From a virus: a stretch of 26,254 bases of DNA. Of the stretch, positions 1,085-13,844 are shown piece by piece (position 1 is the first letter of the stretch; each line of letters begins with the position of its first letter). The notes under the pieces are model-generated. The model saw only the letters and a list, made by a program, of their open reading frames with translations. It was not told the DNA's origin and ran no database searches. The DNA lies in the IMG/VR virus record IMGVR_UViG_3300033064_000890, positions 1 through 26,254 of that record. One strand, written 5' to 3'. The position numbers and the translations under genes were made by a program.

Positions 1085-1312
1085 ATGATTTATCGTAGTG
1101 AACTACATCCTTATATTGCAGACAAGCCAGATGGTTTGCTGAGAATCTTTGGAGTTCTCCTCTTTATTTTCTTTCCTCTTCTGGTTCTGATTACATCTAT
1201 CTATAACTTTCTTTGTGTTCTTGTTGACTACATAGTTAACGATGTATTTCCTGATGTTGTAGATACATGGGAAGACATTAAAGATTTCATCAAAGGTGAT
1301 ATTTGTGCATGA
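1085..1312 (+). CDS. Small membrane protein, unknown function
   Basis: A 75-residue protein with one long hydrophobic segment at about residues 19-52 (LLRIFGVLLFIFFPLLVLIT and the residues after it), long enough for one or two membrane passes, followed by an acidic C-terminal tail (DVVDTWEDIKDFIKGD). Its TGA stop overlaps the ATG of the ribonucleotide reductase (ATGA at 1309-1312), so translation of the two is probably coupled. I recognise no family. Confidence 0.6.
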   Translation: MIYRSELHPYIADKPDGLLRIFGVLLFIFFPLLVLITSIYNFLCVLVDYIVNDVFPDVVDTWEDIKDFIKGDICA

Positions 1313-2275
1313 ATACTGACTATCAGAATTATATAGCTCTCTCCCGCTACTCACGGTACATCCCAAGTGAGCAGCGAAGGGAGAGGTGGGAGGAAACAGT
1401 TACAAGATACTGTGATTTCTGGAAGGATAAACATCCTGACAGTTTCCCATATGAGGAGGTAAAACAATCTATCAGTTCTCTAAAGGTTATGCCCTCCATG
1501 AGGGCTTTGATGACAGCAGGTAAGGCGTTAGACAGAGACAATGTAGCTGGTTATAACTGTAGCTATATGGCTGTAGATAACCAGAGGTGTTTTGATGAAG
1601 CGTTGTACCTACTGATGTGTGGTGTTGGTGTTGGTTACAGTGTAGAGAGGCAGTTCATATCTAAGCTTCCGGTAGTGTCTGAAAGCTTTTACCCATCCGA
1701 TACGGTTATCTCAGTTAGGGATAGTCGTATTGGTTGGGCTTCTGCACTTCGTGAGCTTATCTCTCTGCTCTACCAAGGACAGGTTCCCAAGTGGGATGTG
1801 TCTAAGGTTCGTCCTTCGGGTGTTCCTTTGAAAACCTTTGGTGGTCGTAGCTCTGGACCTCAGCCTCTTGTTGATGTGTTCAATTACTTTGTAGCTACCT
1901 TCAAGGGTTCAGCGGGACGCAAGCTAAATAGTCTGGAGGTTAACGACCTGATGTGTAAGATCTCAATGTCTGTGGTTAGTGGCGGTGTTAGAAGGTCAGC
2001 TTGTATATGTCTGACTAACCTGTCTGACCTTCGTATGCGGGACGCTAAGTCTGGACAGTGGTACATAGAGAAACCTGAAAGGTCTCTTGCTAACATCTCT
2101 GTTGCATACACTGAGAAGCCTGACATAGGGCAGTTCATGCAGGAGTGGCTGTCTTTGTATAATAGTAAGGCAGGAGAGAGGGGGATATTCAATAGGGTTG
2201 CTGCCATAAAGAAGGTAGAAAATTATGGTAAAAGGAAGGTAGAACCTATTGAAGAAGCAGGTGGTACAAATCCGT
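1309..2275 (+). CDS. nrdJ: Class II ribonucleotide reductase NrdJ, exon 1
   Basis: N-terminal 322 codons plus the first base of codon 323 of an adenosylcobalamin-dependent ribonucleotide reductase, which reduces ribonucleoside triphosphates to deoxyribonucleotides for replication. Recognisable pieces are PSMRALMTAG (residues 62-71), AGYNCSYMAVD with the redox cysteine C84, GGVRRSA, ERGIFNR, and GGTNP at the exon end. The next residues of the family motif NPCGEI are missing here: without splicing the frame runs LISLAA and stops at 2295. Joining base 2275 to 3113 restores NPCGEI and gives one continuous 629-residue protein. I chose ATG 1309 because it makes a 4-base ATGA overlap with the upstream stop; a TTG at 1303 is in frame but less likely. 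Domain pattern and length resemble the monomeric RTPR type. Confidence 0.93.
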
Positions 2276-3112
2276 TAATTTCACTAGCGGCATAAGGTAG
2301 AGATATCTTATGAAAATTTTCCTAAAAACGGTGAACATCCTTTAAGGACAATACCGTGCTAACTCAGTATAATGAGGTGCGTAACGACTATGGATAAAAA
2401 ACTTTTGACTAAATACATTTCAGCTTTCATGTTGGGTGACGGCTGTCTCCGTATCTTTAAGAATGGGGGAAAGAATGCTGCCTATAGTTTTTCTCAAGTA
2501 GATAAACATAAAGAGTATACTGACTTTCAGGATAAAATTATTTCTCAGGTCACTGGTGTTACAGTTAGACACTATGACCCTTCTTGTAAAGACGGGATAA
2601 ACAGACAGGGTTACTATAAACTTGAAAGTAGATGCCATCCGTTTCTTACTACTATTTATTCAAGGTGGTATAACAACGGTAGAAAAACTATTTCCCTTCA
2701 TGACTTAAAACAGTTTGATTGGGAGACAGCAGCTATATGGTATATGGATGACGGTTATATTCTTAACTCATCCCTTCCATCACACAATGGAAATGTGTTT
2801 CTTTGCACTGATGGTTTCTCTGAGGCTGAAGTAACAATGCTTCAGAAGATTATATTCAAATCTCTTGGAGTGTCCTTTGATGTTATTAAAAGAGGATACA
2901 AAAAAGATGGGACACGGATATATAGGTTGCGTGCAAAGCATGGTGAACAGGCTACTACGTTTCTTAACGGAGTATCGCCATTCATCTTTGAGTCTTTTAA
3001 GTATAAACTCCGTACGGAAAACCCCACAAATAAAGTGGGTGATGATATAGTCTGTACCACAGTGAAAGCTGTGGAGAAAGACAGAGATGGTCTTTCCTTG
3101 TAACACAATTAG
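2276..3112 (+). mobile_element. Group I intron in nrdJ, encoding a LAGLIDADG endonuclease
   Basis: Self-splicing intron of 837 nt. The 5' exon ends in U (2275) and the intron ends in G (3112), as group I introns require. P1 pairs exon CCGU (2272-2275) with GCGG (2287-2290) and ends in the conserved U-G wobble. P2 is CATAAG/CTTATG (2291-2296/2307-2312). P4 is ACGGT/ACCGT (2328-2332/2353-2357). P6 and P6a include GC/GC and CTCA/TGAG (2358-2380). P7 is GACTAT in an R-like GTAACGACTATGG (2386-2391) with ATAGTC in an S-like GATATAGTCTG (3047-3052). P9 is CCACAG/CTGTGG (3057-3062/3069-3074), and a further hairpin is GAAAGAC/GTCTTTC (3076-3082/3090-3096). The endonuclease ORF lies between the two P7 strands. 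P3 and P8 are less clear to me. Splicing restores the reading frame across the NrdJ active-site motif. Confidence 0.92.
2390..3103 (+). CDS. LAGLIDADG homing endonuclease of the nrdJ intron
   Basis: A site-specific DNA endonuclease that would cut intronless nrdJ alleles and so spread the intron. Two LAGLIDADG motifs are visible: ISAFMLGDGCL (residues 10-20, acidic residue D17) and AIWYMDDGYI (about 115-124, acidic residue D121). This makes it a single-chain, two-motif enzyme, probably of the LAGLIDADG_2 type. The usual C-terminal FxxxKYKL-like end is at about residues 204-208, followed by roughly 30 extra residues that read through the intron's 3' core (P7, P9) and stop 9 bases before the splice site. 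I chose ATG 2390 because GAGG (2374-2377) lies about 12 bases upstream and the LAGLIDADG domain starts at once; an in-frame ATG at 2372 is possible. The chosen ATG lies inside the 5' strand of P7. Confidence 0.9.
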   Translation: MDKKLLTKYISAFMLGDGCLRIFKNGGKNAAYSFSQVDKHKEYTDFQDKIISQVTGVTVRHYDPSCKDGINRQGYYKLESRCHPFLTTIYSRWYNNGRKTISLHDLKQFDWETAAIWYMDDGYILNSSLPSHNGNVFLCTDGFSEAEVTMLQKIIFKSLGVSFDVIKRGYKKDGTRIYRLRAKHGEQATTFLNGVSPFIFESFKYKLRTENPTNKVGDDIVCTTVKAVEKDRDGLSL

Positions 3113-4035
3113 GTGGTGAAATTGTTCTTCGTTCTTGTTCTTTCTGTAATCTTACTGAGGTAGTAGTAAGGAACACCGACACTGTAGGTGACCTGCTACA
3201 CAAGGTAGAGGTAGCTGCTATACTTGGAACCTTTCAGGCTACCCTTACAGACTTCAGGTATCTTAGGTCTGTGTGGTCTACTAACACTGAGGAAGAGAGA
3301 CTGCTTGGTGTAAGCTTGACAGGGTTGATGGATCATCCTATGTTCAACAGTGTTGAGAATATGGTAGAGGCTGCTGAAGTCCTTGATGTTATGCGTAATG
3401 TTGTTGTAAGGACTAACGCAGAGTGGGCGGAGAAGCTAGGGATAAACCCAGCAGCTGCAACTACTACCATCAAACCTAGCGGTACAGTATCACAGCTAGT
3501 TGATAGTAGCTCTGGTATACACCCTAGGTATAGCAAGTACTACATTCGTAGGGTAAGGAATGATAAGAAGGACCCCTTGTCTTCCTTCCTTATTTCTCAG
3601 GGTGTGCCGTATGAGGAAGATGTACATAATAAAGATATGTATGTCTTCAGTTTCCCTATGGCTGCTCCTGAAGGGGCTCGTACCACAGAAGAAGTATCTG
3701 CTATTGAGCAGCTACATAGGTATCTGTTGTATAACGAGTACTGGTCTGAGCATTCTATCTCTATCACTGTCTATGTTAAAGAACATGAGTGGTTGAAGGT
3801 TGGTGCTTGGGTGTATCAAAACTTTGACAAGCTGAATGGTGTGTCCTTTCTTCCGCACTCTGACCACATCTATAAACAAGCACCTTATGAATCTATAGAT
3901 GAGGAAGAGTTTATAAGATGTAGTGAAGAGATGCCTAAGATAGACTGGAACGCATTCAATGTTAAAGAGTACGAGGATGTAACTGCTGGTATAAAGGAGT
4001 TTGCCTGTACAGCAGGAGGCTGTGAGATGGTTTAA
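3113..4035 (+). CDS. nrdJ: Class II ribonucleotide reductase NrdJ, exon 2
   Basis: C-terminal part of the reductase, starting with the last two bases of the codon for the catalytic cysteine. After splicing the sequence reads NPCGEIVLRSCSFCNLTE. C323 is the thiyl-radical cysteine, E325 the catalytic glutamate and C334 the second redox cysteine. The +2 and +11 spacings equal those of C408, E410 and C419 in the Lactobacillus enzyme. Further family landmarks are EERLLGVSLTGLMDHP, TTTIKPSGTVSQLVDSSSG and HSISITVYV. The C-terminal shuttle pair is C621 and C626 in ACTAGGCEMV, which matches the CxxxxC spacing used to pass electrons to the active site. At 629 residues in total it is shorter than the roughly 740-residue Lactobacillus enzyme. 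An in-frame ATG that could suggest a separate gene lies well inside the conserved domain. Confidence 0.93.
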
Positions 4036-13758: not shown

Positions 13759-13831
13759 GCCGCCTTAGCTTTAACGGTAGAGCAACGGTTTTGTAAACCG
13801 AAGGTTGGGGGTTCAAGTCCCTCAGGTGGCT
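13759..13831 (+). tRNA. tRNA-Thr (anticodon UGU)
   Basis: A 73-nt cloverleaf. The acceptor stem pairs GCCGCCT with AGGTGGC (one G-U). The D-arm is GCTT/GAGC with loop TAACGGTA. The anticodon arm is ACGGT, loop TTTGTAA, ACCGA, with an A-A mismatch at the stem base. The variable loop is AGGTT and the T-arm GGGGG, TTCAAGT, CCCTC. Positions 34-36 are TGT, reading ACA threonine codons. The discriminator base is T, and CCA is not encoded (TCAG follows), so host enzymes must add it. It sits alone between the scaffold and capsid genes. ACA is common in most genes here. Confidence 0.9.
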
Positions 13832-13844
13832 CAGAAGCAAAAAG

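Follow-up and report, generated by a model that had tools for sequence, protein, structure and literature searches.

The intron and its host gene

The window, i.e. the whole 26,254-base virus contig analysed here, represents part of the genome of a T7-like podophage (it encodes a T7-type helicase-primase and a Gp10A-like capsid protein). It carries a ribonucleotide reductase (RNR) gene interrupted by an intron:

1303..2275, + strand: 5' exon of the class II (B12-dependent) RNR gene (listed ORF from 1303 to the splice site after U2275)
2276..3112, + strand: group I intron, 837 nt (open spliced frame, partial RF00028 matches, P1, last base G3112)
3113..4035, + strand: 3' exon of the RNR gene (spliced frame, domains on the spliced protein)

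Excision of 2276-3112, which joins U2275 to G3113, gives an open class II RNR frame (GTNP-C-GEIVLRS), and PF02867 and PF21995 were both matched on the spliced protein. P1 is formed by CCGU (2272-2275) and GCGG (2287-2290), with the U2275.G2287 pair at the 5' splice site; G3112 is the last intron base. At the gathering score, Rfam returned only tRNA, and no intron, across the window. RF00028 gave one match per intron half (29.6 and 24.2 bits), both under the gathering score of 50: the halves of the ribozyme are separated by the ORF, by about 620 nt, which leaves two partial matches. A tRNA-Thr (UGU) is found at 13759-13832, in the structural gene region.

Relatives were collected by DNA-pattern and protein scans. 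The comparison set comprises 36 introns with an intact endonuclease gene, i.e. 32 tabulated ones (the window included, as L007) plus L019, L023, L047 and L031; wider patterns provided a control set of 66 introns that share this ribozyme but have a short insert. The scan of one genome collection gave one relative, on a TM6 bacterium contig. The intron also occurs at the corresponding RNR site in the viral contig L006, where its protein is 69% identical to that of the window. When window positions 1475-2275 and 3113-3912 were compared with L006, the RNR exons were 56-58% identical as against 69-80% for the intron, which suggests horizontal transfer of the intron between these genomes. In L002, L003, L020-L024 and L046 the intron-endonuclease unit stands beside differing RNR coding sequences (class II site, small subunit, others), which suggests that it has invaded several RNR sites; the insertion sites were read by eye.

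The ribozyme core and the position of the ORF

The features of the intron, all on the + strand, are the following:

2317..2322, + strand: P3 5' strand, UUUUCC, partner 3016-3021 (each of the 6 pairs has changes in both strands among 21 relatives)
2374..2379, + strand: Shine-Dalgarno (SD)-like GAGGUG; GAG is the P6 3' strand and pairs with CUC 2363-2365 (sequence, family comparison)
2386..2390, + strand: P7 5' strand, GACUA, partner 3048-3052 (paired throughout, 100% of cells, in 21 relatives)
2390..3103, + strand: ORF for a predicted LAGLIDADG_2 homing endonuclease, 237 aa; folded domain residues 1-207, tail about 208-237 (PF03161, AlphaFold2)
2391..2394, + strand: P7.1 5' strand, UGGA, made up of the UG of the start codon and the GA that opens codon 2 (permutation test, covariation)
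3009..3012, + strand: P7.1 3' strand, UCCG (permutation test, covariation)
3013..3015, + strand: J7/3, UAC (position between P7.1' and P3')
3016..3021, + strand: P3 3' strand, GGAAAA, within the ORF (covariation)
3023..3039, + strand: P8 hairpin, CCCAC 3023-3027 / GUGGG 3035-3039, within the ORF (sequence)
3048..3052, + strand: P7 3' strand, UAGUC, within the ORF (covariation)
3057..3074, + strand: P9, arms 3057-3062/3069-3074, GAAA (GNRA) loop 3064-3067, within the ORF (pairing in relatives)
3076..3096, + strand: P9.1 hairpin, arms 3076-3082/3090-3096, within the ORF (pairing in relatives)
3101..3103, + strand: UAA stop codon, separated by 9 nt from the 3' splice site downstream (sequence)

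The pseudoknotted core helices P3 and P7 were confirmed by covariation in 21 relatives: P7 is paired in 100% of the cells and P3 in 99.2% (a figure that is partly circular, because the P3' anchor strings were picked by complementarity), and the observed covariation score was matched by none of 500 shuffles. Boundaries and covarying core together identify 2276-3112 as a group I intron, predicted to be self-splicing. The outer helices are also kept: P9 was paired in all seven long-tail relatives (42 of 42 cells, best-fit arms), P9.1 in 42 of 42 cells of the same introns (best-fit arms), and 2 of the 6 P9 pairs have changed on both sides between the window and L006.

Another helix, P7.1, was seen by covariation between P7 and P3', which is where the extra helices P7.1/P7.2 that serve as criterion for subgroup IA are located. 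Its strands are UGGA/UCCG in the window, UGGAAGAA/UUCUUCCG in L011, UGGUAAU/AUUACCG in L018 and UAAUAUUUUA/UAAAAUAUUG in L026. Strands pair better with their own partner than with exchanged ones (0 of 20 000 permutations reached the observed value, a figure free of circularity because the length of J7/3 had been set to three bases), and both strands have changed in 7 of 8 pairs across the family. The pairing is understated for L022, L042, L046, L049 and L155, in which automatic detection misplaced P3' by one base. The 5' strand of P7.1 consists of the first codons of the ORF and the 3' strand of the sequence just past the protein domain. Protein coding does not explain the latter, since its reading frame differs between members and it is untranslated in some of them.

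As the covarying P7.1 closes the insert between the P7 5' strand and J7/3, the comparison places the endonuclease ORF in the peripheral loop L7.1. The initial annotation had contrasted this ORF with the many intron endonucleases that lie in a peripheral loop, and that contrast falls. It had also left P7.1 unnamed: besides the helices that it listed, the ORF overlaps P3', P8, P9.1 and P7.1. An insertion straight into J7/3 was considered and dropped once P7.1 had been detected and tested. A narrow-spacing pattern scan for gene-less relatives returned L016 only, which (minus strand, around 6234) has three bases (CAU) between the P7 5' strand and P3', with neither P7.1 nor ORF.

The endonuclease

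The protein encoded by 2390-3103 matches PF03161 (E = 1.2e-22; 81.1 bits for a cut-off of 25) and is predicted to be a LAGLIDADG_2 homing endonuclease, with cleavage of the intron-less RNR site as its putative activity. The acidic LAGLIDADG motifs, D17-G18 and D121-G122, are conserved in the family. In the AlphaFold2 model the domain has pLDDT values mostly of 80-98 and is confident to residue 207, in agreement with the domain end first placed near residue 208, and residues 211-237 are at about 36-42. The nearest solved structures found by Foldseek are I-WcaI (E = 1.7e-13) and I-SceI. They have family (PF03161, LAGLIDADG_2) and fold in common with the window protein but are only about 19% identical to it, and the 30-residue unstructured tail belongs to the window protein.

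The start codon

A2390 is the last base of the P7 5' strand, so that AUG 2390-2392 sits on the P7/P7.1 junction. The start had been proposed to lie in that strand; it does, A2390 closing GACUA 2386-2390, and not well downstream of P7. The 3' strand of P7, initially given as 3047-3052, needs trimming: 3048-3052 pairs with the 5' strand, but the additional A3047-U2391 pair, although it could form, is disfavoured by the family comparison, which puts U2391 in P7.1.

An AUG occupies the junction in 31 of 35 long-insert (500-900 nt) introns versus 1 of the 66 short-insert controls (Fisher, 1.7e-20, relatedness ignored; a few members had entered through a search pattern containing AUG). It is thus coding that keeps it there, and not the ribozyme. 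L014 and L026 have GACUAUA at the junction and start 13-15 nt downstream. On the minus strand of L162, an endonuclease copy at the P7.1 junction is cut short by a stop behind its third codon (AUG AGU AAA UAA) in an intron core that otherwise matches; a sequencing error or the decay of a homing gene may be the cause.

Both putative initiation signals fall in the covarying fold, where P6 takes up the SD-like GAG and P7/P7.1 the AUG. In a nested-fold model this GAG was paired at every transcript length, which is only a hint since such a model cannot represent the P3/P7 pseudoknot. SD-like bases lie within P6 in most members, but L006 and L008 have none there, and we rejected the SD as a conserved element. 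A second possible start, the in-frame AUG 2372, is present in the P6 loop.

The C-terminal tail

The coordinates bear out that the ORF continues for about 30 residues through P7', P9 and the next hairpin to stop nine bases before the splice site, and its overlap with both strands of P7 is confirmed by the pairing of that helix throughout the 21 relatives. Where the frame ends varies greatly. Of the 36 introns, 4 have the stop ahead of P3', 14 have it in P3'-P8, 7 end at a UGA immediately past P7' and 11 run further; a tree built from the endonuclease domain of 21 members requires at least 11 switches between these stop classes. Homologues that end near residue 208 do exist, some of them with the stop directly after the domain. 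The Pseudomonas phages SPA01 (L003), HHBS10_2 (L002) and FBPa8 (L001) resemble the window in ribozyme, ORF position and AUG at the P7/P7.1 junction; their stops are in P8 for SPA01 and directly after P7' for the other two, against 9 nt before the splice site in the window.

Between the window and L006, pN/pS is 0.25 for the domain and 1.10 for the tail (the latter from one intron pair and few sites), so that protein-level selection on the tail is not seen; differences at the three codon positions number 47/33/112 in the domain and 13/11/7 in the tail. Third positions are the least variable in the long tails (9 introns), and across P9 the amino acids are altered though the helix is kept (TTVKAV to SSGKLE). 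Since helices are kept while residues change, with such a pN/pS value and such third positions, the constraint on the tail lies at the RNA level, and none is detectable on the protein. The idea that the same bases answer to both RNA pairing and protein coding thus holds for the start region but not for the tail, which, from these comparisons, looks like an unselected by-product.

One feature of the long tails deserves mention. Where the ORF crosses P7' and runs on, the L9 GNRA loop is GGAA or GAAA. GUAA or GUGA, which would be in-frame stops, are found in 0 of 9 long-tail introns, 14 of 20 earlier-ending ones and 12 of 57 short-insert ones. Selection for an open frame could be the cause, but lineage may also be, as only 21% of the gene-less relatives carry GUAA/GUGA.

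Interpretation and alternatives

The explanation that we favour, and regard as probable as a whole, is the following. The RNR gene of a phage hosts a mobile group I intron, which carries its homing endonuclease in L7.1, the first codons (AUGGA...) doubling as the 5' strands of P7 and P7.1. The sequence after the domain forms the 3' strands of P7.1, P3, P8, P7, P9 and P9.1, through which the frame runs on until a chance stop, and the tail would be a non-adaptive 'core creep' under constraint at the RNA level alone. In line with core creep, the extension varies in length among relatives (four stop classes) and, on comparative grounds, is not required by the protein (neutral-like pN/pS, tailless relatives, no predicted structure). 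In the folded ribozyme the SD-like bases are engaged by P6 and the start codon by P7/P7.1, so that the endonuclease is presumably translated from unfolded or nascent intron RNA, and a ribosome crossing P3', P8 and P7' would delay splicing, as for T4 I-TevI. That translation and splicing are alternatives in the window intron, as the initial annotation had it, is a plausible and reasonable inference, for which T4 td/I-TevI offers a direct precedent (PMC2988022, PMC3073962).

The overlap at the 5' end lends itself to two other readings. If the true start were AUG 2372, the protein would have 243 aa and the overlap would include P6, J6/7 and all of P7. An in-frame AUG is present at the equivalent spot in 13 of 21 relatives and one annotator chose the corresponding start (HHBS10_2), but there is no SD upstream, the SD-like GAGGUG sits between the two AUGs, L009, L011, L019 and L047 have no start codon there, the P6-loop AUG of L014 is out of frame with the endonuclease, and the intervening residues are dictated by the invariant J6/7-P7 sequence; we therefore hold this start, possible but weaker than AUG 2390, to be improbable. 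The other reading accepts AUG 2390 and makes the junction an evolved switch: core base pairs would also hide the start codon, folding repressing endonuclease translation and translation repressing splicing, with selection on the overlap itself having kept the AUG in more than 30 phage introns. The partners of P7/P7.1 being some 620 nt downstream, the nascent transcript would then leave a time window for endonuclease translation before folding. This reading draws on the presence of the junction AUG in 33 of 36 introns despite differing N-terminal leaders (MEEYPLK.., MVMEK.., MKIK..), on its recovery in L031 by a one-base shift (GACUAAUG), on the frequent SD-like bases in P6 and on the T4 td precedent. 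Yet L014 and L026, with their downstream starts, show no sign of loss, the SD is not conserved as such (L006, L008), and an AUG at the loop border also follows from the insertion site alone. Such a switch is conceivable, but we are inclined to doubt it.

At the other end, the tail might be a functional part of the endonuclease, or of a maturase, kept by protein selection. The frame is open through P9 and P9.1 in 10 introns, the window included, L9 stops are absent from these long-tail introns, and some tails are alike (C-S/T-x-x-E-x-x-E-x-x-R-N/D-D). A similar sequence is, however, also found where the region is untranslated, so that the likeness is explained by the RNA consensus. With, in addition, the tail pN/pS close to 1, four relatives that stop before P3' and no structure predicted for the tail, we consider a function of this kind very unlikely, and retain core creep.

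Comparison with known systems

Overlaps between endonuclease genes and ribozyme cores had previously been listed as single cases. The present introns form a natural series, with 36 homologues that have one ORF in one place and four kinds of stop, next to 66 short-insert controls. The series supports the start codon within the core as real and tests the prediction that tails are variable and dispensable; the cultured Pseudomonas phages SPA01, HHBS10_2 and FBPa8 allow direct testing of the conflict between translation and splicing.

The extension of ORFs into the ribozyme core was described as 'core creep' by Edgell 2011 (PMC3073962), where it was cautioned that some cases may be annotation errors. 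In T4 td/I-TevI (Gibb and Edgell 2010, according to PMC2988022 and PMC3073962), the conflict was demonstrated, early translation lowering splicing; as in the window, the ORF end supplies core bases including P7, and the RBS is sequestered by RNA structure. The two differ in that I-TevI is a GIY-YIG enzyme in L6a with a 20-nt overlap at the 3' end only, whereas the window ORF is a LAGLIDADG_2 gene in L7.1 with overlap at both ends, and in that td has a dedicated RBS hairpin and a late promoter. The Synechococcus lividus LSU rDNA intron has, like the window, a LAGLIDADG ORF over P6/P7/P3/P8/P9.0/P9 (81 nt; Table 1, PMC3073962), but its ORF insertion site is listed as P8, as against L7.1 and about 95 nt shared on the 3' side in the window. 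The I-PfoP3I intron of cyanophage Pf-WMP3 is likewise from a T7-like phage and its ORF spans P6a, P6, P7, P7.1 and P7.2; it differs from the window in coding for an HNH nicking enzyme that starts in P6a and in residing in a DNA polymerase gene (PMC3428280). Among the open-licence papers searched on P7.1-loop ORFs and core creep, none was found to describe an ORF whose own end codons form the P7.1 that closes it. The type of overlap is thus that known as core creep, and the closure by P7.1, as deduced from the aligned introns, appears to be a new element of it.
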